Below, piece after piece: positions 4,751-35,610 of a stretch of DNA of 64,000 nucleotides. The translations under genes and the position numbers were made by a program. Under the pieces are notes generated by a model, which saw only the letters and a list, made by a program, of their open reading frames with translations, was not told the origin of the DNA and searched no databases. Each line of letters starts with the position of its first letter. Position 1 is the first letter of the stretch. The DNA comes from Pseudidiomarina tainanensis (lineage in GTDB: Bacteria > Pseudomonadota > Gammaproteobacteria > Enterobacterales > Alteromonadaceae), in the NCBI RefSeq assembly GCF_004214835.1, contig NZ_PIQJ01000001.1, positions 992,001 through 1,056,000 on the forward strand, read 5' to 3'.

Positions 4751-4828
4751 GATATTAGCTATTGGATATTAGATATTAGCCCCGATGTTTCAGGTTTTTC
4801 TAATATCTAATATCCAATAGCTAATATC
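4751..4828. repeat. Long hairpin repeat, GATATTA family, copy 1
   Basis: A perfect 29-bp inverted repeat (arms 4751-4779 and 4800-4828) around a 20-base loop. Each arm reads as four heptamers, GATATTA, GCTATTG, GATATTA, GATATTA, plus a final G. It lies between the convergent sixA and smrB genes, and its last two bases are part of the smrB stop codon. Related copies are at 28443, 31576 and 35533. It lacks a T-run, so it is not a typical intrinsic terminator. Confidence 0.95.
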
Positions 4829-5333
4829 ACCTTTGAACTAGGATGAGTAGGGCGGCGTTGCCGCCGTGGGCTGCCGGTGCTTGATGAAAAGCTCGTACTG
4901 CCGGATGCTGAACCAACCAATGCGGTAAATTCTCCTTCAATACCCCTTTACCATGCCCACTCATGACCGCGCAGCATTCAATATGTTGTTTGGCGCACGC
5001 GTGTAACAATGCTCCGAGTTCGCGCTTTGCTTCGGCTTGGGTCATACCATGTAAATCAAGGAATAATTCTGGCGGGAAGTCGCCGCGCCTCAGTTGCTTG
5101 AGTATGTGTGATGATTCACCTTCGACACAATAGCGCACTGGGCCTTCGGGAAAGTGGGCACGAAAAGTGTCAGAGAAAAAGAACTCGGCTTGTTGTTGGC
5201 GCTCAGGTGTATTTTCCGCACGGCGACGTGGCGTGAGTTTGGGGCGCGGTGCCGCAACCGTTTCGCTACGAATACGGCGGTCAACCTTAACTTGCTCGCG
5301 AAATAGCGCGAAATCATCTGTATCTTCACTCAT
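4827..5333 (-). CDS. smrB: SmrB ribosome rescue endonuclease (Smr domain)
   Basis: A 168-residue protein with a charged N-terminal extension and a C-terminal Smr domain: DLHG at residues 93-96 and SGHGKG at 125-130. SmrB (YfcN) cleaves mRNA at collided ribosomes in E. coli. It is divergent from prmB, the same neighbourhood as in E. coli (smrB/prmB-aroC), which supports orthology over other Smr proteins. Its stop codon overlaps the end of repeat copy 1. Confidence 0.92.
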   Translation of the reverse strand: MSEDTDDFALFREQVKVDRRIRSETVAAPRPKLTPRRRAENTPERQQQAEFFFSDTFRAHFPEGPVRYCVEGESSHILKQLRRGDFPPELFLDLHGMTQAEAKRELGALLHACAKQHIECCAVMSGHGKGVLKENLPHWLVQHPAVRAFHQAPAAHGGNAALLILVQR

Positions 5334-5437
5334 AACACGTCGCTTTTTTGTGCCTATCTATCTGCATCTTAGGATGCGAACTCAGTGCTATTAGGGTATC
5401 TTATGGCTCAGAGTAGAACAACTTCGGAGAACCTACC

Positions 5438-6346
5438 TTGTCACAGGTATCTGTCAACTTTACGTCCACCAGTATGCATGATGCACTGCGTTGGGCAGTG
5501 AGCGCTATGCAGGGCGCGGATGTTTATTTCGGTCACGGCACCGATAATGCCTTAAGTGAAGCGCAATTATTGCTGGGCCACGTGACGCAACTGACGTTTG
5601 AGCAGCTAGCTGAATTTCAACAAGCGCGATTACAACCGCATGAATTTGAAGAGTTTGTTGGCCTTGTGACGACGCGTATCGAAGAACGTAAACCCGCGGC
5701 TTATTTGATTGGTCAAGCATGGTTTGCAGGGTTGCCATTTATGGTTGATGAACGGGTACTGGTGCCGCGTTCACCGATTGCCGAATTGATTGAAAAGCGC
5801 TTCACACCATGGCTTGCCCAAGAACCAAAGCGGATTCTTGATCTGTGCACGGGAAGCGGCTGTATTGCGATTGCTTGTGCCTATGCGTTCGATGACGCCG
5901 AAGTTGATGCCCTTGATTTGTCGATTGATGCATTAGCGGTCGCTGAAGAAAATATTGCGATGCATGGTCTTGAAGAGCGCGTTATTCCCATTCAATCGAA
6001 TCTTTATGATGGCGTGCCGAAACAGCGTTATGACCTAATTGTCACGAATCCGCCGTATGTTGATGCTGAGGACATGGCCGATTTGCCAGAGGAATTCCGC
6101 CATGAGCCAGAACTTGGATTGGCGGCTGGCGATGATGGTTTAGATTTGGTTCGAACGATTTTACGCGAAGCGCCGGATCATTTGACCGAGCAGGGTGTTT
6201 TGGTCTGCGAAGTGGGCAACTCGTGGGTTGCGCTTGCGGAAGAGTTTCCAGAAGTACCGTTTGATTGGGTTGAATTTGAACACGGCGGCGATGGTGTATT
6301 TGTTTTGAGCTATGCCGACCTTGTTGCGCATCGCGATAAATTCTAA
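5438..6346 (+). CDS. prmB: 50S ribosomal protein L3 glutamine methyltransferase
   Basis: PrmB methylates the glutamine of ribosomal protein L3 using S-adenosylmethionine. Motif I DLCTGSG is at residues 135-141 and the catalytic NPPY at 204-207, in a protein of 302 residues (E. coli about 310). The start is TTG at 5438 with GGAGA about 9 bases upstream; no ATG in frame gives a full N-terminus. PrmB rather than PrmC is supported by the prmB-aroC-epmC order and by divergent smrB. Confidence 0.94.
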
Positions 6347-6378
6347 CCATCTTGATGAATTAACAAAGAGACAGACTA

Positions 6379-7479
6379 ATGGCGGCGAATACTTGGGGTG
6401 AATTATTTCGAGTGACAACCTTTGGCGAGAGTCACGGCGTAGCGATAGGTGCTGTCGTTGATGGGTGTCCGCCAGGTTTAGAGCTGACCGAAGCTGATAT
6501 TCAGCCATTTTTGGATCGTCGCAAGCCAGGTCAAAACCGTTTCACCACGGCGCGTCGTGAGGCGGACCAAGTAAAAATTCTGTCTGGCGTGTTCGAAGGT
6601 AAAACAACGGGAACGCCGATTGGGCTGTTGATTGAAAACACTGACCAACGCAGTAAAGACTACGGCGATATTAAAGATAAATTTCGCCCCGGCCATGCCG
6701 ATTATACCTATGCGCACAAATACGGTATTCGTGATTACCGCGGTGGTGGGCGCTCGTCTGCGCGCGAAACCGCAATGCGCGTTGCTGCCGGCGCTATTGC
6801 GCAAAAGTATTTAGCAGAAAAATTCGGTATGACGTTTCATGCTGGGGTGGTGCAAATTGGACCGCACAACACGGATGCTGCGCAGCCCGACTTTGCATGG
6901 TCGCACGTTGCTGATGATCCGTTATTTTGTCCGGATCCCGCAATGTCCGCGCAAGCTCAGGACTATTTGAAACAACTCCTTAAAGATGGTGATTCGGTTG
7001 GTGCTCGTGTGCGCCTTGAAGTCAGCGGTGTGCCGGTTGGCTTAGGCGAGCCGGTGTTCGATCGACTCGATGCTGATTTAGCCAAAGCACTGATGAGTAT
7101 TAATGCGGTGAAAGCGGTGAGTATTGGTGATGGATTTGCGGTGGCCGGCCAACGTGGTAGTGAACACCGGGATGCTCTAACTCCAACTGGTTTTGCGAGC
7201 AATCATGCCGGCGGCGTACTTGGCGGTATTAGTAGTGGTCAGCCACTCATAGCGGAAGTCGCATTTAAACCGACATCAAGCATTACCATTGCTGGGGAAA
7301 CCATCGATAGTCAAGGTCAACCAAGTAGCATTGTGACGCGTGGTCGACATGATCCGTGTGTCGGTATTCGCGGTGTGCCGGTGGTCGAAGCGATGGCTGC
7401 GCTTGTGATCATGGATCACTGGCTGCGCCAGCGTGCGCAAAATGGTGACGTACAATCAACCGTGCCGAAGATTGATTAG
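6379..7479 (+). CDS. aroC: Chorismate synthase
   Basis: AroC makes chorismate from EPSP, using reduced FMN as a catalytic cofactor; this is the last shikimate step and feeds the trp genes at the start of the window. The 366-residue length is usual. The signatures [18 protein letters not shown] near the N-terminus, [20 protein letters not shown] in the middle and [17 protein letters not shown] near the end are intact. It follows prmB by 32 bases with AAAGAGA before the ATG, and is probably cotranscribed with it. Confidence 0.98.
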
Positions 7480-7511
7480 TTGGTTTTTCGCAGTAGGTAT
7501 ATTCTCGACGT

Positions 7512-8048
7512 ATGATAAAACATCATTATCAGCAACTTATTCAGTTGTTCGAACAATGCTTTTTTGATGAATTGAATACACGGTTGGTGGCCGGTACCGA
7601 CGAACCTTATTATCAGCCAGCACAATGCGCCGGTGAGAGTCATCAAATTGTCTTTGCGCACGGATTTTACGCCTCGGCGTTACATGAAATTGCACATTGG
7701 TGTATTGCTGGTGAACAGCGTCGGCAGGTATTCGATTATGGTTATTGGTATGAACCGGATGGCCGTAATACCGAGCAACAAGCTGAATTTGAGCAAGTTG
7801 AACGCAAGCCGCAGGCACTCGAATGGTTATTTTCATTATGCGCCGGCGTGCCATTTCAGGTGAGTGTGGATAACCTCGGTGGTATTGAGGTGGACCGCAG
7901 TGCGTTTACAAAAGCTGTTCAAGAGCAATTATCTCGCTATATAATTAACGGACTGCCGCCACGAGCGGAAAAATTTGCCCGCGCTCTGGCTGATTACTAC
8001 CAGCAGCCATGGCCTGCAACAACAATAACTACATGGAACATAACATGA
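7512..8048 (+). CDS. epmC: Elongation factor P hydroxylase EpmC
   Basis: EpmC (YfcM) hydroxylates the lysylated lysine of EF-P after EpmA and EpmB have acted. The 178-residue protein has the metal-binding HEIAH at residues 58-62 and the family's YGYWYEPDGR at 76-85. It lies downstream of aroC as in several gammaproteobacteria. Its stop overlaps the start of the next small gene in an ATGA. EF-P, epmA and epmB are not in the window. Confidence 0.93.
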   Translation: MIKHHYQQLIQLFEQCFFDELNTRLVAGTDEPYYQPAQCAGESHQIVFAHGFYASALHEIAHWCIAGEQRRQVFDYGYWYEPDGRNTEQQAEFEQVERKPQALEWLFSLCAGVPFQVSVDNLGGIEVDRSAFTKAVQEQLSRYIINGLPPRAEKFARALADYYQQPWPATTITTWNIT

Positions 8049-8179
8049 AGAATCGCTATTTTATTATGCTGTTAGTCGCGTTAGGTTTAAGCAGTTGTGC
8101 CACCATTGAAGGCATTGGCAAAGACCTAGAAAGTGCCGGTGAAGCTATTCAAGAAGGTACTCGCGATAAAGGTGAATAA
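8045..8179 (+). CDS. Small entericidin-like lipoprotein
   Basis: A 44-residue frame, MKNRYFIMLLVALGLSSC followed by ATIEGIGKDLESAGEAIQEG, with a clear lipobox (LSSC, cleavage before Cys18). The mature peptide is about 27 residues and resembles the entericidin A/B family, small membrane lipoproteins known as a toxin/antidote pair in enterics. The start overlaps the epmC stop as ATGA, and the end overlaps the next gene's start by 8 bases, so the three genes appear translationally coupled. Only one entericidin-like gene is seen, so no antidote/toxin pair can be claimed. Confidence 0.85.
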   Translation: MKNRYFIMLLVALGLSSCATIEGIGKDLESAGEAIQEGTRDKGE

Positions 8180-9314
8180 GTCTCCGTTGTTTCGTATTGG
8201 TTTAATCGTTAATGCGTTTGCAGGTCTTGGCGGTTCCGTCGCTCTGAAAGGTAGTGACGGCGCTGAGACCGCGCAGCGCGCACTTGCGTTAGGCGCAACA
8301 CCGAAAGCGCCGCAACGCGTCAAACAAGCCCTGCAGGTTATTCAGCCGCATACAGAGCAATTGCAGTTTGTCACTGGGGCGAACGGTCTCGGTGCTGATA
8401 TTGTGCACGACCTCGGTTTTTCCTGTGATGTCATTTATACCCCTGAGCAAAGCCTAACCAGTGCCACCGACACCCGTGAATTGGCGCGTTTATTAGGCCA
8501 GCGTGACGATATTGATTTATTACTGTTTGCCGGCGGTGATGGCACGGCTCGTGATGTCTGTGCTGTGTATCCGGAGTTGAGACCCGTACTGGGAATTCCG
8601 GCTGGGGTTAAAATTCATTCGGGTGTTTATGCGATTTCGCCAACCGCTGCAGGCAAAGTACTTGAGCAATTAATTCAAGGGCAGCTGACCAGTGTAACGA
8701 ATGCGGATGTCATGGACATTGATGAAGAGGCGTTTCGCCAAGGCACAGTAAAAGCGCGCCGCTACGGCGAAATGTTAGTACCAGCCGAGCTACGTTACGT
8801 GCAAGCGGTAAAAATGGGCGGCAAAGAAAGCGATGAATTAGTGCTTGCTGATATTGCCGCCGATGTTATTGAGAGCATGGAAGATGACACGCTTTATGTG
8901 ATGGGATCCGGCTCAACCGTCGCGTTTATAATGGAAGATTTAAACTTACCGAATACTTTGTTGGGCGTCGATGTTGTGCGTGCAGGTGAGGTTATTGCCA
9001 GTGACGTTACGGCACATCAGCTTGAACAGCTGATCAGTGAGCACCAAGGCCCGGTGCGCTTGATTATCACGGTCATCGGTGGGCAAGGGCATATCTTCGG
9101 GCGCGGAAATCAACAACTTAGCCCAGCAGTGATTCGCATGATTGGTAAGGACAATATTCAAATTGTGGCAACCAAAGCGAAGTTGCAAGCGCTTGGTCAG
9201 CGACCGTTGTTGGTTGATACTGGTGAACCTGATTTGGATGCCGAGTTGTCAGGCTTGATGCGCGTGACAACTGGCTACCATGATGAAGTCTTTGTGCGGG
9301 TAGAAAGCGCTTAA
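8172..9314 (+). CDS. ATP-NAD kinase family protein (COG3199-like)
   Basis: About 380 residues of the diacylglycerol/NAD kinase superfamily, with the phosphate-binding GGDGT at residues 121-125 in LLLFAGGDGTARDVC and the VLGIPAGVKIHSGVYA element that marks the COG3199 subfamily rather than NadK. The physiological substrate is not settled for this subfamily. A GTG at 8172 is chosen because VNKSPLFRIGLIVNAFAG begins the conserved core; an upstream GTG at 8133 would read through most of the lipoprotein gene in another frame. The 3' end overlaps the ferredoxin stop by 4 bases. Confidence 0.85.
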   Translation: MNKSPLFRIGLIVNAFAGLGGSVALKGSDGAETAQRALALGATPKAPQRVKQALQVIQPHTEQLQFVTGANGLGADIVHDLGFSCDVIYTPEQSLTSATDTRELARLLGQRDDIDLLLFAGGDGTARDVCAVYPELRPVLGIPAGVKIHSGVYAISPTAAGKVLEQLIQGQLTSVTNADVMDIDEEAFRQGTVKARRYGEMLVPAELRYVQAVKMGGKESDELVLADIAADVIESMEDDTLYVMGSGSTVAFIMEDLNLPNTLLGVDVVRAGEVIASDVTAHQLEQLISEHQGPVRLIITVIGGQGHIFGRGNQQLSPAVIRMIGKDNIQIVATKAKLQALGQRPLLVDTGEPDLDAELSGLMRVTTGYHDEVFVRVESA

Positions 9315-9631
9315 AATTGCGATTTCGGTAAGCGTACGACAATACCGTCGAGTTCTTCGGTCATGTCAATTTGACAGCTCAAACGGCTGTTATCTTGCGG
9401 GTCGATTACCATATCCAGCATATCTTCTTCCATTTCGCTGGCTGGCGGTATTTTGTTAACCCAAGCCGGATCGACATAACAGTGACATGTTGCACACGAC
9501 ATGACGCCACCGCATTCACCGAGAATACCGTCGATCATGTGATCAACAGCACCTTCCATCAGGTTTTGACCCACTTCGACTTCTGCTTCAAATTCGCCAC
9601 CTTGGGCATCAATGTATATGACACGAGGCAT
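9311..9631 (-). CDS. 2Fe-2S ferredoxin (putidaredoxin/adrenodoxin type)
   Basis: A 106-residue ferredoxin with the cluster cysteines Cys40, Cys46, Cys49 and Cys86 (CGGVMSCATC and LSCQ). This C-x5-C-x2-C spacing defines the adrenodoxin/putidaredoxin type, which feeds electrons to P450s, Rieske oxygenases or Fe-S assembly. No partner reductase or oxygenase lies nearby, so its client is unknown. It stands alone and is not next to isc genes in this window. GGAG lies upstream of the ATG. It is convergent with the NAD-kinase-like gene. Confidence 0.92.
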   Translation of the reverse strand: MPRVIYIDAQGGEFEAEVEVGQNLMEGAVDHMIDGILGECGGVMSCATCHCYVDPAWVNKIPPASEMEEDMLDMVIDPQDNSRLSCQIDMTEELDGIVVRLPKSQF

Positions 9632-9766
9632 AACAAAAAACTCCTTAAATAATGGTCGCCGGGTGCATTGTGGACGTTAAGGTTAGCACAAATCAGTGCG
9701 GCAAAAGTGATGAAATTATTGTAGAATACCGCAATTTTTTAATCAGCAGAGCGAGAGTGGGGGCTT

Positions 9767-11068
9767 ATGCAGGCTTTATTGGAGCGATTGTTTCAAATCA
9801 AAGCGCAAGGAAGTACGGTAAAACGTGAAGTGATTGCGGGTATCACGACGTTTTTAACCATGGCGTATATTATTTTCGTGAACCCTTCCATGCTCAGCCA
9901 AGCTGGGATGGACTATGGTGCCGTGTTTGTCGCAACTTGTTTGGCCGCAGCCATTGGTTGTTTGGTGATGGGGTTATGGGCAAATTATCCGGTCGCGTTA
10001 GCACCGGGCATGGGTCTCAACGCATTCTTTACCTATAGCGTTGTGTTAGGTATGGGCTACACCTGGCAAACCGCACTGGGCGCTGTGTTCTTCTCTGGTA
10101 TTTTATTTTTCTTGCTCTCGGCGTTGCGGATTCGTTCATGGATCATCAACTCGATTCCCGTCACACTAAGGTTGGCGATTGCCGCCGGTATTGGTGCATT
10201 TCTGGCGCTCATTGGTTTAAAAAACGCGAACATTATTGTTGCCGATAACGCGACGTTAGTATCGCTTGGTGACATGTCGCAACTGTCGGTATTGCTTGCC
10301 GGTGCTGGCTTCTTTTTGATTATTGGTATGGTTGCGCGCGGCATTCAAGGTGCGGCACTTATTAGTATACTTTTAGTGACCGTGGCCGGCTTTTTACTGG
10401 GTGATGTGCAGTACAATGGCATTGTTGCAGCACCGCCAAGCTTAGCGCCGACATTCATGCAAATGGACATTGCGGCTGCCTTTGACGTTGCCATGTTAAG
10501 CGTTATTTTTGCATTTTTGTTCGTTGATTTATTCGATACCTCAGGCACCTTAATGGCTGTTGCTCAGCGCGCTGGCTTAGCCAAACCAGATGGCTCATTA
10601 CCACGGCTTGAGCGCGCATTAATGGCCGATAGCACGGCAACCATTGCCGGTGCCGCTTTGGGTACTTCAACGACAACCAGTTATGTTGAATCAGCCTCAG
10701 GGGTAGCGTCGGGCGGTAAAACCGGACTGACTGCTGTTGTGGTTGGCTTGTTGTTTGTTTTAGCAATATTTTTTGCACCGTTAGCAGGTATGGTGCCTGC
10801 TTATGCCACGGCTGGCGCAATTATCTATGTGTCGGTATTGATGTTGTTCACACTGCGTTCCGTCGATTGGGACGACATTACCGAAGCGGCTCCGGTAGCC
10901 GTTGTATTGTTGATGACGCCGCTGACGTTTTCGATTGCTGATGGCATCGCCCTGGGCTTTATAAGCTACGTGGTGGTGAAAGCGCTCGGCGGTAAAATGC
11001 GTGAATTAAATTGGAGTGTTGCAATCTTAGCAGCGCTGTTTGTCGCTAAATTTATTTGGTTGGGGTAA
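9767..11068 (+). CDS. NCS2/AzgA family purine (hypoxanthine/guanine/adenine) permease
   Basis: A 433-residue inner-membrane transporter with about 12-14 hydrophobic segments. The family signatures are intact: [42 protein letters not shown] and [15 protein letters not shown]. Relatives GhxP and AdeP import hypoxanthine/guanine or adenine with protons. It is followed after 5 bases by gpt, so import and phosphoribosylation of purine bases are coupled in one operon. Which base is preferred cannot be read from sequence. Confidence 0.93.
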
Positions 11069-11073
11069 TCACT

Positions 11074-11559
11074 ATGGGATGGCATTCAAATCGCGAGTTT
11101 TTCGTATCGTGGGAAGAGTTACATCGGGCCACAAAGGAACTGGCGCGTCGTCAGTTACCAGCAGAGCAATGGCGCGGTATTATTGCGGTGAGTCGCGGTG
11201 GACTTGTACCTGCGGCAATTGTTGCGCGTGAGTTGAACGTACGTGTGGTCGATTCAGTGTGTGTGAGTTCGTATGACCATGATAGCCAACGCGACAGCGT
11301 GACCATGTTGAAAGACGTAAACGCCACCGACGATGGCGAAGGCTTCTTGGTGATTGATGATTTGGTTGATACCGGCAATACACTGAAGTTTTTACGTGAG
11401 CGCTTTCCTAAAGCAAAATTCATCACGGTTTACGCAAAGCCAGCAGGTATGCAACTGGTTGATGATTACGTTGCTGACTTAGAGCAAGAAACATGGATTC
11501 ACTTCCCGTGGGATATGCACTTGCATTATGTTGAGCCGTTGGCTGGTTCCGAAAGCTAA
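11074..11559 (+). CDS. gpt: Xanthine(-guanine) phosphoribosyltransferase
   Basis: Converts xanthine, guanine or hypoxanthine to the nucleotide with PRPP in purine salvage. The type I PRT motif [11 protein letters not shown] spans residues 93-103 and ISVSRGGL-like [11 protein letters not shown] lies at 38-48. 161 residues (E. coli Gpt 152). The ATG at 11074 is preferred to an upstream TTG that overlaps the permease, because [17 protein letters not shown] aligns with the family start. Cotranscribed with the permease and followed by a strong terminator. Confidence 0.92.
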
Positions 11560-11580
11560 TTGTGCGGTCACAAAGAGACA

Positions 11581-11610
11581 AAAAAGCCCGAATTAAATTC
11601 GGGCTTTTTT
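11581..11610. terminator. Bidirectional intrinsic terminator (gpt / proS)
   Basis: A 13-bp perfect stem, AAAAAGCCCGAAT with its complement, 3-base loop, flanked by A and T runs on both sides. It lies between the convergent gpt and proS genes and can stop transcripts from either side. Confidence 0.93.
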
Positions 11611-11645
11611 ATTTGTAATGACAATGCGTATAGGTCAGCGAACAA

Positions 11646-13352
11646 TTAGAGCTTGCTTTGCAAATGCTCCAATACTGCATCGATCGCCAGTTTTTCTTTG
11701 TCGCCACTACGACGCGACTTGTACTCAACGGCTTGTTCATCCAGATTACGCTCACCAATCACGATTTGATGGGGAATCCCAATCAATTCAAGATCAGCGA
11801 ACATCACGCCAGGGCGCTCTTTGCGGTCATCGAATAAGACTTCGATACCAGCTGCCGTTAACTCGTTATAGAGCTTCTCAGCAACTTCTTGTACACGTGC
11901 TGACTTGTGCATATTCATTGGAACCAACGCAACCTGGAATGGCGCTAATGCGTTAGGCCAGATGATGCCGTATTGATCGTGGTTTTGCTCAATAGCAGCA
12001 GCTACGATGCGTGACACGCCGATACCATAACAACCCATGGTTAAGGTTTCGTGTTTACCCGTCTCCGTCAACACGCCGACTTTCATAGCTTCTGAATATT
12101 TCTTACCCAGCTGGAAGATATGGCCAACTTCAATACCTCGCTTAATTTGCAAGGTTCCTTGACCGCATGGGCTTGGATCACCGGCAACCACGTTACGCAA
12201 ATCGAACGTTTCAGGCAGCGCAACGTCACGTTCCCAGTTGATGTTGAAGTAATGGTAGCCATCGTCGTTAGCGCCGGCTGCAAAATCTGCAAGTACGGCA
12301 ACACTTCGGTCAATAATCAATGGCATTGGCAAATTAACTGGTCCTAATGAACCTGGGCCGGCGCCAATCGCTGCTCGAATTTCTTCATCGCTGGCAAACA
12401 CTAATGGGCTGGCAACCAATGGATGTTTGGCTGCTTTAATTTCGTTCAATTCATGGTCACCGCGAATCATTAAGGCAACCAATTGACCTTCTTCAGCACC
12501 GTGAACGATCAGTGTTTTTACCGTTTTCTCAATCGGTAACTTAAATTGCTCGACCAGCGCTGCGATTGTTTTCGCATCTGGCGTTGCAACTTTTTCCATT
12601 GCTGCAGACGGCGCAGGGCGGTTGCCGGTAGGAGCGACGGCTTCTGCCATTTCGACGTTCGCGGCGTAATCAGAGCTATCTGAGAAGGCGATATCATCTT
12701 CACCTGAGCTCGCTAAAACATGGAACTCGTGCGATGAACTACCACCGATTGAACCGGTGTCAGCTATCACTGGACGATAATCTAGACCTAAACGCTCGAA
12801 AATACGGCAGTAGGCTGCATGCATCACGTCGTACGTTTGTTGCAAGCTCTCTTGGTCAAGATGGAATGAGTAAGCGTCTTTCATGATGAATTCGCGTGAA
12901 CGCATGACACCGAACCGCGGACGAATTTCATCACGAAATTTGGTCTGAATTTGGAATAAATTCAGTGGCAGTTGCTTATAGCTACTAATTTCTTTGCGCG
13001 CTAATTCGCTTATCACTTCTTCGTGGGTTGGTCCCAATACAAAATCACGATGGTTCCGATCATGTAAGCGTAACAATTCTGGACCATAGTCATTCCAGCG
13101 ACCAGACTCTTCCCATAAATCAGCGGGTTGAACCATTGGCATAAGAACTTCTAAAGCGCCGGCGCGTTCCATTTCTTCGCGAACCACTCGTTCAACTTTG
13201 CGGAGTACGCGCAAGCCGGTCGGTGTCCACGTATAGAGGCCAGCAGCAACTTTGCGAATCATACCGGCGCGCAGCATCAATTGATGACTGATGACTTCGG
13301 CATCGGCAGGGGTTTCTTTTAATGTTCCTAATAAATATTGGCTGGTACGCAT
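11646..13352 (-). CDS. proS: Prolyl-tRNA synthetase (bacterial type, with editing domain)
   Basis: Charges tRNA-Pro with proline. 568 residues, close to E. coli's 572, starting [19 protein letters not shown] exactly as the family does; GAGGATCAC precedes this ATG, so it is taken over an ATG 21 bases further upstream. Class II motif 2 appears as [17 protein letters not shown] and motif 3 as [17 protein letters not shown]. The inserted editing (INS/YbaK-like) domain occupies roughly residues 220-400. Stands alone, convergent with gpt. Confidence 0.97.
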
Positions 13353-13422
13353 GTGATCCTCAAATTCCAGCAAAATTCCAATGGTGTTATTGGGATGAAA
13401 TTCTATCAGTAGCGGGCCTGTG

Positions 13423-14151: not shown

Positions 14152-14366
14152 GATTGGCGTTTCTGACTGAATTAAATTTGAGTTATTTCAGCATAATTTT
14201 GTGATTTTGACTAATTTATAATAATTAAATAAGACACTCATTTTGTGTAACCTCCTGATAATTATATTAAAAATAATTGGCATGATAATTGCTTTATAAA
14301 CTTCGAGTGAAATTTTTACGTCACATAACGACGATGACAATATGAATCATTAGGGAGACAACAACA

Positions 14367-15014: not shown

Positions 15015-15039
15015 TCATTGATTAAGTTTGTTTAAAGAA

Positions 15040-15067
15040 AAAGCCCCGTTTGAACGGGGCTTTTTTT
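15040..15067. terminator. Intrinsic terminator between GVG-repeat gene and hns
   Basis: AAGCCCCGTT pairs with AACGGGGCTT around a 2-base loop, with an A-run on the left and seven T on the right. It lies between two convergent genes and could act in both directions, with the stronger T-run for the plus-strand gene. Confidence 0.92.
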
Positions 15068-15080
15068 ATATAATAAGTTT

Positions 15081-15485: not shown

Positions 15486-15507
15486 ATTTATTCCAAGTTA
15501 TTAACAA

Positions 15508-15581: not shown

Positions 15582-15602
15582 AAGTTAATTCATTTAAATA
15601 AA

Positions 15603-17246: not shown

Positions 17247-17249
17247 AGT

Positions 17250-24316: not shown

Positions 24317-24329
24317 TGCTGTTCCTTAA

Positions 24330-25115: not shown

Positions 25116-25126
25116 CTATCGCTCCT

Positions 25127-26734: not shown

Positions 26735-26766
26735 GATAGCGACTCCTAATAATTAGTTGCGCAGAA

Positions 26767-27936: not shown

Positions 27937-27938
27937 AT

Positions 27939-28364
27939 TTACTCCTGATTTGTTACTGCAGAATTCGCTGTGCTCTGATTTGCTTCAATATCAGCAAGCT
28001 CATCACGACAACGGTCTTCTAAGTTGGTGAGTTCCACTAAGAGAACCTTAATATCTTCAAGTTGTTGCTTGAGTGACATTTTCTTGTCATCAATCAACGC
28101 TAATACGGTATGCAACTGGCGCGCGCTGCTATTTTCCATGTCATACAAATCAAACAAATTTTTGGTTTCTGCCAATGAGAATCCAAGCCGTTTACCACGC
28201 AAAATCAGTTTCAGCCGCACCCGGTCTTTATTGGTATAAAGTCGTGTTTGTCCTTGTCGCTGTGGCGACAGTAGCCCTTGGTCCTCGTAAAAGCGGATGC
28301 TACGAGTGGTGATGTCGAATTCGCGGGCGAGTTCGCCGATGCTGTAAATGGTTGTTGCGTTCAT
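27939..28364 (-). CDS. liuR: LiuR, MerR family regulator of branched-chain catabolism
   Basis: 141 residues: MerR helix-turn-helix at the N-terminus ([20 protein letters not shown], then EDQGLLSP), a recognition wing, and a C-terminal dimerisation helix. It lacks the cysteines of metal-sensing MerR proteins. As the first gene of the liu cluster and with a matching palindrome 45 bases upstream, it is very probably the LiuR repressor known in gammaproteobacteria. The inducer is thought to be an acyl-CoA intermediate in the family; nothing in the sequence fixes it here. Confidence 0.92.
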
Positions 28365-28408
28365 TTTTGCTTGCTTGTCATGGTTGAGGGCGTTAAGCTT
28401 AAAACAAG

Positions 28409-28424
28409 TTGACGTTAACGTAAA
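28409..28424. promoter_or_regulatory. Candidate LiuR operator
   Basis: The 16-bp imperfect palindrome TTGACGTTAACGTAAA resembles the gammaproteobacterial LiuR motif as I recall it. On the minus strand it sits between a TTACCT-like -35 and a TTTTAA-like -10 about 19 bases apart, the elongated spacing usual for MerR-controlled promoters. It lies between liuR and the divergent thiolase and could control both. Confidence 0.75.
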
Positions 28425-28442
28425 GGTAAGAAAGGCCGAAAA

Positions 28443-28531
28443 CGATATTAGCTACTAGATATTAGATATTAGAACTGATGTATCGAGCTTTTGTGTTTCA
28501 TCTAATATCCAATATCTAGTAGCTAATATCG
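28443..28531. repeat. Long hairpin repeat, GATATTA family, copy 2
   Basis: Arms at 28443-28473 and 28501-28531 pair over 31 positions with a single mismatch, around a 27-base loop containing TGATGTATCGAGCTTTTGTG. The second and third heptamers differ from copy 1 at two positions, and the opposite arm carries the matching changes. It lies between the LiuR site and the thiolase start, so it would be in the thiolase 5' untranslated region. Confidence 0.95.
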
Positions 28532-28555
28532 AAGTTGATCTTCATGGGAGTTTTT

Positions 28556-29734
28556 ATGTCTGATGCAGTAGTCATTGTTGCCGCCAAACGCACCCCAATG
28601 GGTGGTTTTCAAGGCAGTTTAACCGACGTGAGCGCGCCTAATTTAGGTGCTATCGCCATTAAAGCCGCGCTTGCCGAGAGTGGTTTGCAAGGTAGCGATG
28701 TGCAAGAAGTGATTATGGGTAATGTGTTGCCAGCCGGATTGGGACAAGCGCCGGCGCGTCAGGCAACATTATATGCCGGGTTACCGCGTAGTGCTGGTGC
28801 GACGACCATCAACAAGGTGTGTGGTTCTGGTTTGAAAGCGGTGATGTTTGCGCATGACTTGATTCACGTGGGTTCTGCAGACGTTGTTGTGGCTGGTGGT
28901 ATGGAGAGTATGTCGAATGCGCCATATTTGCTGAAGAAAGCGCGTGCTGGCTTCCGGATGGGGCACGATGCGATTTATGACCATATGATGCTGGACGGTC
29001 TTGAAGACGCGTACGAAGGCAAAGCGATGGGTTGTTATGCACAGAGCACGGCAGATGAATATGGTCTTGGTCGTGAAGCGATGGATAACTTTGCGTTAGC
29101 TTCGTTGAACCGCGCTCAAACCGCGATTAAAGATGGTTTGTTTAAAGATGAAATTACGCCAGTGACCTACAGCACTCGTAAGGGTGATGTGACCGTTGAA
29201 ATCGATGAGCAACCGGGTAAAGCAATGCCAGAGAAAATTCCTGGTTTGCGCCCAGCGTTTGCGAAAGATGGCACCATTACTGCCGCCAACTCAAGCTCGA
29301 TTTCAGATGGCGCAGCCGCGTTAGTGTTGATGCGCGAAAGCGACGCCAAAGCACGTGGTTTAAAACCTTTGGCGCGGGTGGTTGGTCATGCAACACATTC
29401 ACAAGCTCCAGCTGAATTCACCGTTGCTCCAATTGGTGCCATGAACAAGTTACTCGACAAAGTGCAATGGAACAAAGATGACGTTGATTTGTGGGAAATC
29501 AACGAAGCGTTTGCGATGGTGACGATGCTGGCCATGCAACAGATGGATATCGACCATGACAAAGTTAACGTTCATGGTGGTGCTTGTGCACTTGGTCATC
29601 CAATTGGTGCCAGCGGTGCACGTTTGCTTGTCACCTTGTTGCACGCATTGAAACAACGTGGCAAGAAGCGCGGCGTCACCTCACTGTGCATTGGTGGCGG
29701 CGAAGCGGTTGCTGTTGCTGTTGAAATGATCTAA
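28556..29734 (+). CDS. Acetyl-CoA C-acetyltransferase (thiolase)
   Basis: 392 residues. Splits acetoacetyl-CoA to two acetyl-CoA, or 2-methylacetoacetyl-CoA in isoleucine degradation. Catalytic elements: Cys in INKVCGSGLKAVMFA, His in GGACALGHPIGASGAR, and Cys in SLCIGGGEAVA. The ATG at 28556 has GGGAG 5 bases upstream and gives MSDAVVIVAAKRTPMG; an upstream TTG has no support. It is divergent from liuR and completes the liu/aacS route. Its end overlaps the EamA stop by 4 bases. Confidence 0.95.
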   Translation: MSDAVVIVAAKRTPMGGFQGSLTDVSAPNLGAIAIKAALAESGLQGSDVQEVIMGNVLPAGLGQAPARQATLYAGLPRSAGATTINKVCGSGLKAVMFAHDLIHVGSADVVVAGGMESMSNAPYLLKKARAGFRMGHDAIYDHMMLDGLEDAYEGKAMGCYAQSTADEYGLGREAMDNFALASLNRAQTAIKDGLFKDEITPVTYSTRKGDVTVEIDEQPGKAMPEKIPGLRPAFAKDGTITAANSSSISDGAAALVLMRESDAKARGLKPLARVVGHATHSQAPAEFTVAPIGAMNKLLDKVQWNKDDVDLWEINEAFAMVTMLAMQQMDIDHDKVNVHGGACALGHPIGASGARLLVTLLHALKQRGKKRGVTSLCIGGGEAVAVAVEMI

Positions 29735-30579
29735 GTCGGCTTTCGTGATGCGAGCCATACTGAGCTAATTAAGATCACACCGCCGGCGGCAAGCCGTGGC
29801 CAGTCCACGGCTTGACCCCAAAAGGCATAGTTGATTAGAAGTCCTGCGGGAATCAGCATATTGTTCATGGTGGCGAGCTGTGCGACGTTAACGCGTTTCG
29901 CACCAAGGTTCCAAGCAAGGTAACCAAGCCCAGAGGCTCCAAGACCAAGCCAGAGTAAAATACCCCATTCTAATGGGCTGGTCGGAACTTTCGAGAAGTC
30001 GGCAAAGAGTGCCATCGCAATGCCTGAAGCGGCGGTAGCACCAATAAAAAATAACGCAAACGCATGCACTTGGTTACGGGTATCACCGAGCTCAAGTCGC
30101 TTATAGAACACTTGTCCCGCAGCAAAACAAATATTGGCTGCTTGGATGAGTAAAAAGCCGATCACAAAAGAGTCGCTGAGGGTTTCAAACCGTATTACGG
30201 CGGCTCCAATAACAGCGACGAGAGCTGCCATCCACCAGCGCGCTGGTAAGTGGCGGCGTTGAAAGATAACGTCGTCAATTAGCGTCACGTAAAGCGGGGT
30301 GAAAATGGTAAATAGCAGTACCTCGGGTACCGACAAATAAAGAAAGGCGTGATAGAGAAACAGATACATGACGCCGATTTGAATGGCACCAATGATTGCG
30401 AGTTGCCATTGTTGTTTAAATGCCAGGCGAGCAGGACGCCATAGCGGCAAAAATAGGGCTAAGGCAAGAACCATGCGGATAAATACGGCGATATAACCGT
30501 CGACGTGGCCGGCAAGAAACTCTCCGATGAGCGAAAAGCTTGCAGCCCAAAGTGCGGTTACTGCCCATAAAATCCACAT
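29731..30579 (-). CDS. EamA/DMT family transporter
   Basis: 282 residues with about ten membrane segments forming two EamA repeats (about 1-135 and 140-280), typical of drug/metabolite transporters such as amino-acid exporters. The second half contains WGILLWLGLGASGLGYLAWN, characteristic of the fold. The substrate is unknown; its position between leucine and valine catabolic genes hints at amino acids or their derivatives, which is inference only. It lies 14 bases downstream of the AraC-type regulator on the same strand, so the two probably form an operon. Confidence 0.88.
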   Translation of the reverse strand: MWILWAVTALWAASFSLIGEFLAGHVDGYIAVFIRMVLALALFLPLWRPARLAFKQQWQLAIIGAIQIGVMYLFLYHAFLYLSVPEVLLFTIFTPLYVTLIDDVIFQRRHLPARWWMAALVAVIGAAVIRFETLSDSFVIGFLLIQAANICFAAGQVFYKRLELGDTRNQVHAFALFFIGATAASGIAMALFADFSKVPTSPLEWGILLWLGLGASGLGYLAWNLGAKRVNVAQLATMNNMLIPAGLLINYAFWGQAVDWPRLAAGGVILISSVWLASRKPT

Positions 30580-30593
30580 AGCGTTCTCCTGGT

Positions 30594-31481
30594 TTATTGA
30601 ATGCTCTTGGTCGCAGAGCTTTCGCGATAGTGTTGAGGGGAAATCCCCATCGTTTTTTTGAACAGACGCGAAAAATAATACGGGTCATCAAAGCCAAGTT
30701 GTTGGCTGATTTGGCGAATTGAGTCGGTTGATGCGTCGAGCAACTGACAGGCTATTTTAACTCGAATTTGATTAAAGTAACGCATCGGGCTGGTGCCAGT
30801 GAATTGTTTAAACTTTTTGCTGAAATGAAAGCGCGATAGACCAGCAAAATCAGCAAAATCGTCTAGGCTTAAGTCGCGATGCGAGTTGTCGTACATGAAT
30901 CGCTCTAGGGCGGGTAAGTCAAAGCCTTGCGGCGCTTGCATGGTTGCCGTTAAGCGCGGTAATTCAGCAATAATGCGCTGTAACAAGCTTGCGGCAACGA
31001 CAGCTGCCGCAAATTGATGACGTTGTGTTTGCAGGTTTAGCAAGTCGGTAACCACCGGAATCAACTGACGCCAACGGGCGAGAGTTAACACTGGCTGCTG
31101 TTGTGACAACTCAAGAAATTCGAGACAGGCACTAGCGGCAGAACCTTGAAAATGCGCCCAATAAATACTCCATGGATGATCTGAATGCGCGGCATAAGCG
31201 TGAGCTTCGCCAGCAGGTAATAGCAATAATTGTCCAGCACTCAGTATGCCGCTGACGCTCTCAGTGCGATACCAACCGCTACCACGATGACAGAATATGA
31301 GTAAGTAATCGGTATGTTGTTGGCGTTCAACTTGGTGTCCTTGAGCATCGACATAATGCCCGTATGCAAGCGGATATAAATGTTTTGTCAATGGATGACG
31401 GGACAATTGTCTGGTCAATTGTAGTGGCAAAACTACCCGTGAGCTTCCGGGCGGAAGTGGCCACGATGATGGTTGACTCAT
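30594..31481 (-). CDS. AraC family transcriptional regulator, MmsR-like
   Basis: 295 residues. The N-terminal cupin sensor domain (about 25-120, with LLIFCHRGSGWYRTE and LLPAGEAHAYAAH) is followed by the C-terminal double helix-turn-helix (about 190-290, with LDDFADFAGLSRFHFSKKFK and LGFDDPYYFSRLFKK). GGAG lies 7 bases before the chosen ATG at 31481. It is divergent from mmsA; in Pseudomonas the AraC-type MmsR activates mmsAB, so control of the valine cluster is a reasonable inference. Confidence 0.88.
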   Translation of the reverse strand: MSQPSSWPLPPGSSRVVLPLQLTRQLSRHPLTKHLYPLAYGHYVDAQGHQVERQQHTDYLLIFCHRGSGWYRTESVSGILSAGQLLLLPAGEAHAYAAHSDHPWSIYWAHFQGSAASACLEFLELSQQQPVLTLARWRQLIPVVTDLLNLQTQRHQFAAAVVAASLLQRIIAELPRLTATMQAPQGFDLPALERFMYDNSHRDLSLDDFADFAGLSRFHFSKKFKQFTGTSPMRYFNQIRVKIACQLLDASTDSIRQISQQLGFDDPYYFSRLFKKTMGISPQHYRESSATKSIQ

Positions 31482-31575
31482 GGAAGGCTCCGAGATCGCA
31501 ATTTTGTCCATTATAGGGGCAAAATAGTCGATGTTAAAGGGCCTCGAAAACAACGACAATGGATAAATGCAAAAA

Positions 31576-31664
31576 CGATAACAGCTATTGGATATTGGAT
31601 ATTAGCACTGATGTTTCGGGCATTTGTGTTTTTACTAATATCTAATATCCAATAGCTGATATCG
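31576..31664. repeat. Long hairpin repeat, GATATTA family, copy 3
   Basis: Arms 31576-31605 and 31635-31664 pair over 30 positions with one mismatch and one G-T wobble, around a 29-base loop (ACTGATGTTTCGGGC then TTTGTG) very like the loop of copy 2. A T-to-C change at arm position 6 relative to copy 1 is matched on the other arm. It lies between the divergent AraC regulator and mmsA, about 30 bases before the mmsA start. Confidence 0.95.
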
Positions 31665-31696
31665 CAGTTGAAGAATTCAATAAAGAGGTAATACAG

Positions 31697-33196
31697 ATGA
31701 GCAAGAAAGTTCCTTTATTTATCGACGGCGAATTCGTCCAGTCGAATACCAGCAACTGGATTGACGTGACCAACCCGGCCACGCAGGAAGTGATTGCGCA
31801 AGCACCTTGTGCAACTCAAGACGAGATGAAAAAAGCGGTTGAGAGCGCCAAGAAAGCGTTTTTGACGTGGAAAGAAGTACCAGTTTCTGAGCGTGCACGC
31901 GTGATGATGCGTTACCAAGCATTGCTCAAAGAGCATCACGATGAAATTGCTGAAATTCTTGCGAGTGAAACCGGTAAAACCTTTGATGATGCGAAAGGCG
32001 ATGTTTGGCGTGGTATCGAAGTCGTCGAACATGCGGCGAACATTCCATCGTTGTTGATGGGTGAAACCGTTGAAAACGTTGCGCGTGGTATTGATAGCTA
32101 CAGCTACACCCAACCATTGGGTGTGTGTGCAGGGATTACCCCATTTAACTTCCCAGCCATGATTCCATTGTGGATGTTCCCACTGGCCATTGCTTGCGGT
32201 AACACTTTTATTTTGAAGCCATCAGAGCAAGATCCGTTAACGCCAACCCGTTTGGTTGAATTATTTGAGCAAGCTGGCGCGCCAAAAGGCGTATTGCAAG
32301 TGATTCACGGTGGTAAAGAGCAGGTTGATTTCTTATTAGACGAGCCTGCAGTTCGAGCGATTTCTTTTGTTGGATCCGTGGCCGTTGGTCAGTATATCTA
32401 TCGTCGTGGTACCGAGAACATGAAGCGCGTACAAGCGTTTGCTGGTGCCAAAAACCACTGCGTGATTATGCCTGATGCAAACAAGTCACAGGTTATTAGC
32501 AACTTGGTTGGAGCCTCTGTTGGTGCAGCAGGTCAGCGTTGTATGGCGATTTCTGTCGCAGTATTTGTGGGCGCAGCACGTGAGTGGATTCCTGAAGTTG
32601 CCGCTGAACTTGCAAAAGTGAAGCCGGGCGGCTGGAACGATAAAGACGCGGCGTACGGTCCGTTGATTAGCCCACAAGCGAAACAGCGTGTTGAGAACTT
32701 TATTACACAAGGTCAAAAAGAAGGTGCTGAGTTGTTGGTTGATGGCCGCAACTGCCAAGTTGAAGGCTTCCCGAATGGCAACTGGGTTGGCCCGACCATG
32801 TTTAGCAAAGTAACCACCGATATGGAAATCTACAAAAATGAGATTTTCGGTCCGGTACTTTGTGCCACTGAAGTTGAAACACTCGACGACGCTTTGGCGA
32901 TGGTAAACGCTAACCCATACGGTAACGGAACGTCGATCTTTACGGCGAGTGGTGCGGCTGCGCGTAAATATCAACATAACGTCGAAGTTGGCCAAGTGGG
33001 TATCAACATTCCAATTCCGGTGCCATTACCATTCTTCTCATTCACCGGTTGGAAAGGTTCGTTCTTTGGCGACTTGCATGCTTACGGTAAGCAAGCTGTG
33101 CGTTTCTACAGCGAAACTAAAACCATCACTGCCCGTTGGTTCGAAAGCGATATCGCTGACGCCAATGGTCCGAATATGACGATTCATTTGAAGTAA
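31697..33196 (+). CDS. mmsA: Methylmalonate-semialdehyde dehydrogenase (CoA-acylating)
   Basis: Oxidises methylmalonate semialdehyde to propionyl-CoA with CoA and NAD, the last valine-specific step. 499 residues of the aldehyde dehydrogenase fold, with catalytic Cys282 in [12 protein letters not shown], the NAD-binding FVGSVAVG and the family's [24 protein letters not shown] precedes the ATG. First gene of the valine cluster, divergent from the AraC regulator. Confidence 0.97.
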
Positions 33197-33208
33197 TAGG
33201 ACGTTGTC

Positions 33209-34366
33209 ATGAACTTTAATTTAACTGACGACCAACAAGCTTTTGTCGATACGGCAAAAGCTTTTGCTGAAAAAGAGCTGGCGCCTTTTGCGGCGCAGTG
33301 GGATGAAGAATCACACTTCCCGATTGAGGTGTTCCGTAAAGCTGGCGAAATGGGCTTCATGGGTATGTACACCCCGGAAGACGCCGGCGGTTTTGGTATG
33401 AGCCGTTTGGATGCGGCGTTGATTTTCGAACAGTTATCCATGGGTTGTACGGCAACCACCGCGATGATGACCATTCACAATATGGTCACTTGGATGATTG
33501 GCTCATTTGCCAAACCTGACGTGATTGAACAGTGGGTTCCGGAGTTGGTTACTGGTGAAAAGTTAGGTTCGTATTGCTTAACTGAGCCAGGTGCTGGTTC
33601 TGACGCCGCAAGCTTGCGTACAACCGCCAAAAAAGATGGCGATGAATATGTATTGAACGGCTCAAAAATGTTCATCTCAGGTGCAGGTAGCACCGATGTG
33701 CTAGTGGTTATGGCACGCACCGGTGAAGCGGGTCCAAAAGGCATCTCTGCATTTGTGGTACCAGCTGATGCTGCCGGTATTAGTTACGGTAAAAAAGAGG
33801 CGAAAATGGGTTGGAACGCACAACCGACTCGCCTCGTCACGTTTGAAGATGTGCGCATTCCAGCGGGCAATTTGTTGGGTGAAGAAGGTGAAGGTTTCAA
33901 GTTTGCCATGATGGGCTTAGACGGCGGCCGTATTAACATCGCTGTTTGCTCTGTGGGCACTGCCCAGGCGGCCTTGGATACAGCGCGTAACTATATGCAT
34001 GAACGCACGCAATTCGGCAAGGAGCTAGGTCATTTCCAAGCGTTACAATTTAAATTAGCCGATATGGCCACCGAATTGGTTGCTGCGCGTCAAATGGTGC
34101 GTTTGGCGGCATTTAAAGTGGACAGTAATGATTCTGACAAAACCACATACTGCGCAATGGCGAAGCGATTCGCGACCGATGTTGGCTTCCAAGTTTGTAA
34201 CGAAGCACTGCAAATTCATGGCGGTTATGGCTATATCAAAGAATATCCGTTGGAGCGCCATGTGCGCGACGTGCGGGTGCATCAAATTCTTGAGGGTACT
34301 AACGAGATTATGCGCGTGATTATTGCCCGTCGCTTACTCGCCGATATGGACCGAGCCATCCTTTAA
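33209..34366 (+). CDS. Acyl-CoA dehydrogenase, probably isobutyryl-CoA dehydrogenase
   Basis: 385 residues. Oxidises isobutyryl-CoA to methacrylyl-CoA in valine degradation, passing electrons through ETF to ETF-QO. FAD-binding LTEPGAGSDAASL and HGGYGYIKEYPLERHVRDV are present; the catalytic Glu362 lies in LEGTNEIMR near the C-terminus, as in short-chain and isobutyryl enzymes and unlike LiuA. Substrate is inferred from its place 12 bases after mmsA. Confidence 0.93.
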   Translation: MNFNLTDDQQAFVDTAKAFAEKELAPFAAQWDEESHFPIEVFRKAGEMGFMGMYTPEDAGGFGMSRLDAALIFEQLSMGCTATTAMMTIHNMVTWMIGSFAKPDVIEQWVPELVTGEKLGSYCLTEPGAGSDAASLRTTAKKDGDEYVLNGSKMFISGAGSTDVLVVMARTGEAGPKGISAFVVPADAAGISYGKKEAKMGWNAQPTRLVTFEDVRIPAGNLLGEEGEGFKFAMMGLDGGRINIAVCSVGTAQAALDTARNYMHERTQFGKELGHFQALQFKLADMATELVAARQMVRLAAFKVDSNDSDKTTYCAMAKRFATDVGFQVCNEALQIHGGYGYIKEYPLERHVRDVRVHQILEGTNEIMRVIIARRLLADMDRAIL

Positions 34367-34398
34367 GGGTGGCTTTTCTGTTTTAAAAGGAGGTCATC

Positions 34399-35523
34399 AT
34401 GGATCCAGTGGTCTTATTCGAAGAACTTGATGCCAGCAATGATAAACGTATTGGCATCATCACTCTGAATTCTGAAAAATCATTGAATGCGCTAAGTCTA
34501 CCAATGATTCAACTGCTGCAACCACAATTACAAAAGTGGGCAGAAGACGATGCCATTGCTTGTGTATTTATGCAAGGTGCTGGTGATAAGGCGTTCTGTG
34601 CTGGCGGTGATATCGTGGCTATGTATAAAGCGATGCAAGCCAAACCAGGTGTGCTTGTTGATGAAGTGGCTGACTTTTTTAGCCAAGAATATCGTCTTGA
34701 TTACGCCATACATACTTTCCCCAAACCGATTGTGTTGTGGGGGCATGGCATTGTTATGGGCGGCGGCATGGGCCTGATGAACGGTGCGAGCGATCGTATT
34801 GTGACTGAACGCTCGTTATTAGCGATGCCGGAAGTCACCATTGGTTTATACCCAGATGTTGGTGCAACTCACTTTTTGAATCAAATGCCAGAAGGCTGCG
34901 GTTTGTTTTTAGGGCTAACTGGGGCGCACATGAATGCCACCGACGCGCTCTATTTAAAGCTCGCCGATCATTTTGTGGCGAGTTCAAGCAAAGATGATGT
35001 GTTGCAGGGCTTAAAAGAAGTGAAATGGGGCGATACCGCGGCGCTTAATCACCAAAAAGTTACCGATGTTCTTAACGGTATTGGTTTACGTGACAGCAGT
35101 CAGCGCCCGGCGGGACAGGTTGAAGCGCATCAACAGTTGATTAAAAAGCTTACACAAGGCGCCGATATCGAAACCGTGGTTGCAGCCATTGTGAATGACA
35201 GCACTGACGACAAGTGGTTAGCACGGGCGCGTCAGACGCTTGCCGCAGGCTGTCCGATGACCGCACATATCGTATGGAATCAGTTACAGCACGGCGCTGA
35301 TTTAAGTTTGGTTGATTGTTTCCGTCTGGAATTAACCTTGTCAGTTCAGTGTGCGATGCGTGGTGATTTCGCCGAGGGTATTCGTGCTCTGTTAATTGAC
35401 AAGGATAAACAACCGAAATGGCAGCATGCCTCGGTTGCGGATGTTTCTGCGCAAGAGGTGGATGGTTTCTTTACGTCGCCGTGGGCAGCCGATGAGCACC
35501 CACTTGCAAATTTAGGTAAATAA
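34399..35523 (+). CDS. 3-hydroxyisobutyryl-CoA hydrolase (crotonase family)
   Basis: 374 residues, longer than enoyl-CoA hydratases and matching HIBYL-CoA hydrolases. Oxyanion-hole GDKAFCAGGDIVAMYKA (62-78), WGHGIVMGGGMGLMNGA (114-130) and AMPEVTIGLYPDVGATHFL with catalytic Glu145 and Asp153 are diagnostic. It frees 3-hydroxyisobutyrate from CoA for oxidation by MmsB. AAAGGAGG precedes the ATG. Repeat copy 4 follows 9 bases after the stop. Confidence 0.95.
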   Translation: MDPVVLFEELDASNDKRIGIITLNSEKSLNALSLPMIQLLQPQLQKWAEDDAIACVFMQGAGDKAFCAGGDIVAMYKAMQAKPGVLVDEVADFFSQEYRLDYAIHTFPKPIVLWGHGIVMGGGMGLMNGASDRIVTERSLLAMPEVTIGLYPDVGATHFLNQMPEGCGLFLGLTGAHMNATDALYLKLADHFVASSSKDDVLQGLKEVKWGDTAALNHQKVTDVLNGIGLRDSSQRPAGQVEAHQQLIKKLTQGADIETVVAAIVNDSTDDKWLARARQTLAAGCPMTAHIVWNQLQHGADLSLVDCFRLELTLSVQCAMRGDFAEGIRALLIDKDKQPKWQHASVADVSAQEVDGFFTSPWAADEHPLANLGK

Positions 35524-35532
35524 GAGCAAAAA

Positions 35533-35610
35533 CGCTTTTAGCTATTAGATATTAGATATTAGCCCGTAGCATAGGGGTTTCTAATATCTAATATCCACTA
35601 TCAAATATCG
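35533..35610. repeat. Long hairpin repeat, GATATTA family, copy 4 (decayed)
   Basis: The inner 15 bp of the arms (35548-35562 and 35581-35595) pair perfectly around an 18-base loop, but the outer halves (35534-35547, 35596-35609) have diverged and pair only in part. The terminal C...G pair is kept. It lies between the hydrolase gene and mmsB on the same strand, 15 bases before the mmsB start. Confidence 0.9.

Follow-up and report, generated by a model that had tools for sequence, protein, structure and literature searches.

The window analysed here is a 64,000-nucleotide stretch of the Pseudidiomarina tainanensis genome (G000, 2.37 Mb; contig C1:992001-1056000). Between positions 4751 and 35610 it contains four long intergenic hairpins whose arms are built from GATATTA-type heptamers. 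At another locus the same arms enclose the genome's single gene for an S23 protein, and dozens of further loops between such arms have no gene. Copies lie up against stop codons, a given site may be occupied or empty and of one heptad type or another depending on the species, and S23 genes of many phyla sit in such inverted repeats. The best reading is that the four hairpins are REPIN-like non-autonomous derivatives of an apparently mobile S23 hairpin element, related to the intervening sequences (IVSs) of rRNA.

An earlier note, made from the letters of this stretch alone, had located the four hairpins, and all lie where it placed them. A repeat search of the window bears out the arm lengths and complementarity it gave: arms are 100% complementary in copy 1, 97% in copy 2 and 93% in copy 3, and copy 4 was detected within a longer 74% inverted pair that contains 35534–35562/35581–35609. 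Searching with a 29-base arm and up to three mismatches returned eight matches in the window, which are the eight arms, and none in 100 dinucleotide shuffles.

Copy 1 (4742–4840) has an outer flank at 4742–4750, arms at 4751–4779 and 4800–4828, a loop at 4780–4799 and a right flank from 4829. It begins directly after the TAA (4739–4741) of a plus-strand open reading frame (ORF; 4250–4741); at the other end, the right arm reaches into the stop codon (4827–4829) of a convergent minus-strand Smr-domain ORF (4827–5333). Copy 2 (28433–28541) has arms at 28443–28473 and 28501–28531 and a loop at 28474–28500 with the family loop word ACTGATGTATCG; it is flanked by a MerR-type ORF on the minus strand and a thiolase ORF on the plus strand. 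The flanking genes of copy 3 (31566–31674; arms 31576–31605 and 31635–31664) are an AraC-type ORF (minus) and an aldehyde dehydrogenase ORF (plus). Copy 4 (35524–35621; arms 35534–35562 and 35581–35609) lies 10 nt past the TAA (35521–35523) of an enoyl-CoA hydratase-type ORF and 16 nt upstream of the ATG of a 3-hydroxyisobutyrate dehydrogenase-type ORF. The loop words common to copies 2 and 3, the AAAACG before copies 2–4 and the CGAAGTTGA-like tails that the note listed are all there.

The hairpins are short and repetitive, with inverted ends and no gene of their own, as in a miniature inverted-repeat transposable element (MITE). Their stems are A+T-rich, about 29–31 bp long, and lack the G+C-rich stem and T run of an intrinsic terminator, in agreement with the note. 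Rfam at gathering thresholds gave no match at the four hairpins; its sole match in the window is a t44 RNA at 52526–52627 (81.4 bits).

The family is far larger than the four copies from which it was described. A strict two-arm pattern finds 10 copies in G000, and an 18-base arm pattern with up to two mismatches gives 113 forward and 90 reverse matches, with 0 for both reversed-pattern controls. A covariance model made from 25 G000 copies of the GATATTA hairpins (R1) gives at least 124 strand-matches at E ≤ 0.001. Since the listed sites mostly match on both strands, this corresponds to about 62 sites, a count that may be too low because 144 of 776 candidates were scored. The libraries and literature searched held no already-catalogued family of this kind, the other outcome that would have spoken against the note. 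Across the 25 copies the inverted repeat extends outward beyond the heptads, roughly as AAAANCAANNNCG ... CGNNNTTGNTTTT, so the flanks of the window copies belong to the family. Some loops have words in common, such as ACTGATGTATCGGGTATTTGTGTTTT, in either orientation. At one site (L010 1282–1573; G000:C5), six left arms stand in tandem, 41 bp apart with the spacer AAAAGCAAGAAC, and the last is part of a complete hairpin.

Some members have other structures beside or within them. At three G000 contig ends (L029, L030 and L036), TTCGTGC-like repeats stand beside a GATATTA hairpin arm, behind an apparent 5S rRNA gene and terminator. At L028 1476–1608 and L203 18735–18859, a terminator-like G+C-rich hairpin with a T run lies inside the loop of a GATATTA hairpin.

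One arm match (L020; G000:C1, 649 kb) runs into an ORF and exits through the complementary arm. The ORF encodes a 118-aa S23/23S_rRNA_IVP protein, with 116.3 bits to TIGR02436 (cut-off 24) and 118.7 bits to PF05635 (cut-off 33.8), and is the sole TIGR02436 match in G000. This copy sits between the gene for ribosomal protein S20 and the MurJ gene. The AlphaFold (AF2) model of the protein has four helices and a mean pLDDT of 96.2. Foldseek matches it to the S23-family structures XCC0516 (2GSC; 2gsc_B; TM 0.90, rmsd 0.9, 41% identity) and 2RLD, and more weakly to Avd (4DWL; TM 0.57–0.74, 12–14% identity), the protein of diversity-generating retroelements to which PF05635 has been likened (PMC10053308). 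S23 and Avd have the same fold class; unlike those retroelements, the S23 element has no reverse transcriptase, template repeat or variable repeat visible inside it.

The arms of the gene-less hairpins match the ends of this element, a candidate for their autonomous parent. Very probably, the four window hairpins are gene-less (MITE- or REPIN-like) members of the S23 hairpin element family. An alternative is that an unrelated transposase moves them, for example a RAYT or an insertion sequence whose ends they carry. In general terms they do resemble REPINs, being palindromic, intergenic, present in high copy number and clustered in tandem, which fits that idea. However, the sole full-length copy found holds the S23 gene and no other gene (no search for RAYT or insertion sequence genes was made), and the pairing of S23 with inverted repeats recurs in many phyla. 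We regard a foreign transposase as distinctly improbable.

The recurrence was measured on 140 S23 loci: those of the window's genus and GTDB family, 80 named loci from many phyla and 30 from the window's phylum. TIGR02436 is present in 10 of the 59 genomes of the family, and PF05635 matched in 62 of the 398 genomes of the phylum sample. Nine loci without a recognisable ORF and four with short flanks were left out, which leaves 127 usable but non-independent loci (15 genus, 10 family, 73 diverse named, 29 phylum). An inverted repeat joins the upstream and downstream flanks at 81/127 loci, compared with 2/511 same-locus controls and 3/378 mismatched loci; a direct repeat does so at 18/127. Tandem period 7 occurs within about 220 nt at 52 of the 127 loci versus 25 of 739 same-locus control pairs, and period 8 at 14/127 versus 3/739. 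Each of the periods 4–6 and 9–13 is found at 0 to 2 of the 127. The 73 diverse named loci alone include 45 with the inverted repeat and 56 with any repeat feature. Within the window's family, several S23 genes have heptamer arrays that, judged by eye, differ from genome to genome.

Plasmids carry S23 relatives as well, in 31 records, mostly from cyanobacteria. Eight cyanobacterial plasmid loci from these records were analysed; all eight reach the inverted-repeat threshold (scores 14–31), and six, all except L416 and L419, pass the period-7 threshold on one side or both. In two of them the S23 gene and its inverted repeats stand among cas genes, between cas6 and cas4 (L413) and between cas10 and a Cmr3-family gene (L419).

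Of the 26 genomes of the genus, 17 carry a single TIGR02436 match apiece. By coordinates, all of these genes adjoin the S20-gene side as at the G000 locus, and 14 of the 17 also join murJ directly. The arms at the S23 locus vary by species; by eye, a possible heptad pattern GNTNYTN can be made out across the genus. Arm classes were also assigned by eye; class C/D versus the rest requires one change on the S23 tree (16 rows) and four on the murJ tree (17 rows), so the arms go with the S23 lineage. A de novo survey of 200 kb from each of 10 genus genomes found 14 heptad hairpins in G000, 3 in G063, 1 in G067 and 0 in G068, G073 and G071, all six of which have S23, and 0 in four genomes that lack it.

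The note had called for a comparison of occupied with empty sites in relatives, and both empty sites and hairpins of another heptamer type at the same spot were found. At the copy-2 site, G076 has a hairpin of the same type and G059 has none; these are the sole two relatives that could be compared. At the copy-3 site, compared in 17 relatives, G076 has a GATATTA hairpin, G074 and G069 have a TTCGTTA-type hairpin and none was seen in the other 14; a possible decayed hairpin in G067 failed the inverted-repeat test. The copy-4 site, compared in 18 relatives, shows GATATTA hairpins in G074 and G069, a TTCG-type hairpin in G076 and none seen in the other 15.

Another 20-kb stretch was compared between G000 and G079. 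All four sites compared hold a palindrome of another type in G079; they were picked where the alignment broke, so they give no rate, and a fifth site (L206:8752) aligns through. At one of the four (site D), a short TTCGTTA-like stretch lies beside the GATATTA hairpin of G000, where G079 has a whole TTCGTTA hairpin, as if the stretch were the remnant of an earlier hairpin. G079 also shows nesting at one locus, where a hairpin occupies the loop of a second one. Together, the genome-wide dispersal, the presence and absence at orthologous sites, the nested copy and the gene-bearing full-length copy give good support to the non-autonomous mobile element that the note offered as one of two possibilities. 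A second dispersed palindrome family, of the TTCGTTA/TTCGTAC type, is also seen in G000 itself (L206:10860–10980) and has matches in several relatives.

Site turnover bears on two other explanations. Hairpins could be built or rewritten in place by local DNA processes, such as heptamer slippage or template switching that mends quasi-palindromes, with no part for S23. Tandem heptads, left-arm arrays and the other hairpin types at the same sites in relatives fit this, but it leaves unexplained both the association with S23 and the outer repeats and loop words common to unlinked sites; we consider it very improbable. Alternatively, some other process generates and disperses the heptamer hairpins, and the S23 gene, as a passenger, homes into those already present. 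Gene-less hairpins outnumber S23 copies by about 60 to 1 in G000, the dispersed hairpins of some genomes are unlike the arms at their own S23 locus, and at site D a GATATTA hairpin stands beside a TTCGTTA-like stretch where G079 has the whole TTCGTTA hairpin, all of which suits a passenger. Against this, arm class tracks the S23 lineage (1 change) and not the host marker murJ (4), and inverted repeats accompany S23 loci in many phyla (dispersed copies were examined in two genera). On balance we find a passenger role unlikely.

Copies often stand close behind stop codons. In G000, 26 of the 50 ends that face a stop codon (ORFs of at least 100 aa) lie at a distance of 9–13 nt, with 16 at exactly 10 nt; in this count, made on 39 rows, one copy (L024) figures in four registers, and without three of these it is 26/44. 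The 25 ends that face a start codon are more scattered, at 4 to 298 nt. In the 200-kb samples the 9–13 nt spacing is found for 8/24 heptad-hairpin ends, compared with 3/33 ends of other inverted repeats and 44/1316 random-box ends. Among the diverse S23 elements, 50 of 133 stop-facing ends fall in bins −10 to +9.

Gene-less arrays near stop codons also occur in a distant genus, which has four S23 loci with TAGGCAG arms (L173, L176, L180 and L187). A 21-base TAGGCAG pattern with up to two mismatches is found in 7 of 8 genomes of this genus and 1 of 5 other genomes, and the reversed-pattern control gives 0. The 30 array loci cut out correspond by coordinates to 15 distinct sites. No S23 motif lies within 500 nt at 13 of the 15, at 10 of the 15 an array end is at most 10 nt away from where an ORF with 80 or more codons stops, and several sites are, by eye, inverted pairs.

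A position behind stop codons could also point to an RNA function. The second possibility in the note, a regulatory RNA hairpin family, was assessed on a 39-pair stem in 25 copies by shuffling the 3′ letters 500 times, and found no clear support: stem pairing is 85.9% compared with 86.2% in shuffles. The covariation score was equalled or exceeded in 112 of 500 shuffles and the number of cells changed on both sides in 251 of 500; pairs with both-side changes and further pair types come near the upper tail, with 44 and 42 of 500 shuffles as high. We therefore rejected a riboregulator as the principal explanation, as covariation across the 25 copies does not clearly exceed that of shuffles. The copies look like independently decaying DNA insertions.

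More broadly, the hairpins could be functional RNA structures (RNase III sites, mRNA stabilisers or 3′ end signals) under selection on the RNA fold. Many copies just behind stop codons, copy 4 between co-directional genes and the RNase III cleavage of the related rRNA IVS hairpins, reported in PMC4990558, are compatible with such a role. The lack of clear covariation, the copy-3 and copy-4 sites that are empty in most relatives compared, and the location of copies 2 and 3 between divergent ORFs speak against it, and we judge it quite unlikely.

Among the nearest known counterparts of the S23 hairpin element are the rRNA IVSs. PMC4990558 describes three tandem heptamers before the S23 ORF in the Coxiella 23S rRNA IVS, states that S23/IVP proteins have no known function and notes that earlier authors had long suspected IVSs to be mobile. 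The full-length copy at G000:C1:649 kb resembles such an IVS in being a hairpin-bounded element with an S23 ORF, a description that does not extend to the window copies. Unlike an IVS, neither the S23 copy nor any of the four window copies is inside an rRNA gene; all have protein genes on both sides. Further differences are the dozens of dispersed gene-less copies and an arm type that varies between species at the same site. For the one 23S gene seen in G000 the match is 2880 nt long, and nothing in it points to an insert. We also considered that 23S rRNA in the genus might hold an IVS with these arms and set this aside: matches were obtained in 15 of 26 genomes, and the longer ones (G064 and G077) contain runs of N and provide no evidence.

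REPINs and their RAYT partners (PMC3116915) share with the hairpins that they are short, palindromic, extragenic, multi-copy and presumed non-autonomous, with a partner gene in trans. Here, in contrast, the partner is a four-helix-bundle S23 protein instead of a tyrosine transposase, the arms are tandem heptads and the partner gene lies inside the full-length hairpin.

The element may work as follows. In its full-length form, one S23/IVP gene lies between inverted arms, each with about four heptads and a short repeat on the outer side; this is the architecture of an S23-bearing 23S rRNA IVS, placed between genes. The S23 protein would recognise the heptad hairpin as RNA or single-stranded DNA, and a copying enzyme in trans, possibly a reverse transcriptase, would supply the copying. 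New copies would be placed just behind stop codons or into older hairpins, positions that would avoid damage to genes, and one gene-bearing copy could serve many gene-less ones. With S23 driving the spread of the hairpins in trans included, we hold this account to be the best explanation with moderate confidence.

Several observations weigh against it. No transposition event or target duplication was seen, and the flanks of the empty sites are too diverged to define a duplication. Foldseek gives the Avd matches weak E-values, of 0.1 or more. The distribution of R1 matches in the genus, with 16/17 genomes that have S23 and 3/9 that lack it (Fisher p 0.002), speaks in favour, but independent contrasts behind this correlation are few (3 pairs, p 0.5) and R1 was derived from GATATTA hairpins. 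G068 has S23 and no R1 match, and the three genomes with matches and no S23 have 16, 8 and 2. The dispersed GATATTA hairpins of G074, G076 and G077 are unlike the TTCGTTA arms of their own S23 locus, and dispersed hairpins and own arms also look mismatched in G071, G070 and G063. Because hairpins were found in just 3 of the 6 sampled genomes with S23, high copy number is not general among S23-bearing species. At the thresholds used, 31 of the 127 S23 loci have neither an inverted repeat nor a period-7/8 array; in the wider GTDB family 5 of 10 usable loci lack the repeat signature and the other 5 have it. In one of the eight genomes of the TAGGCAG genus (G203) the heptamer pattern found no match. 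A heptamer with TAG or TGA in it can itself create a stop, which weakens the stop-codon argument for stops inside an array.

There is more than one earlier description of heptamer repeats between genes, with no cause given for them. The GGGAATC/GGGGATT repeats of Xanthomonas and Nostoc, compared here by description, are similar in being intergenic heptamer arrays with a preference for four units and a proximity to stop codons. PMC4692102 reports 186 and 183 arrays, mostly of four units, for the Xanthomonas repeats, with 70 and 75 inverted pairs in two genomes near or overlapping stop codons, and few inverted pairs in Nostoc; it treats the heptamers as G-quadruplex repeats and as unassociated with mobile elements. 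The S23 structure 2GSC comes from X. campestris. The TAACTGA heptamers of Beggiatoaceae, cyanobacteria and Bacteroidetes are dispersed intergenic repeats, many near gene boundaries, and were interpreted as regulatory in Beggiatoaceae (PMC4679880); by description they differ from the present hairpins in being direct repeats, with one inverted case. The terms ‘S23’ and ‘four helix’ have 0 occurrences in PMC4692102 and in PMC4679880, and in the open-access literature (subscription papers and preprints lay outside the search) we found no link between dispersed heptamer hairpins and S23.

The pairing of S23 with hairpins offers one direct hypothesis for both, namely that the protein serves the hairpin, and its recurrence with inverted 7-base repeats across phyla suggests a role that can be tested for a family of proteins with no known function. 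If true, this would add a mobile element without a transposase, explain S23 genes between unrelated genes, cas genes included, and predict which genomes carry which repeat. More tentatively, S23/IVP genes might mark a phylum-wide, transposase-free mobile class: a hairpin of heptads that carries one Avd-like gene, with gene-less, REPIN-like offspring that settle behind stop codons and replace one another at fixed sites, perhaps via RNA and a reverse transcriptase in trans. The rRNA IVSs and the orphan heptamer repeats of Xanthomonas, Nostoc, Beggiatoaceae and Coxiella would then be its footprints. In a large survey of CRISPR systems (PMC10910872), the legend of a figure that deals with associations of CRISPR adaptation modules and arrays mentions 23S rRNA IVP; S23 elements among cas genes could explain this.

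Some S23 genes in the genus appear to be in decay. The matches at L090 (G069) and L050/L054 (G042) are split or partial, and the genes look broken. At the S20-adjacent site of G064 (L319) there is no TIGR02436 match, and a stretch there looks, by eye, like the 3′ end portion of the S23 gene in a relative, as though the gene had decayed.

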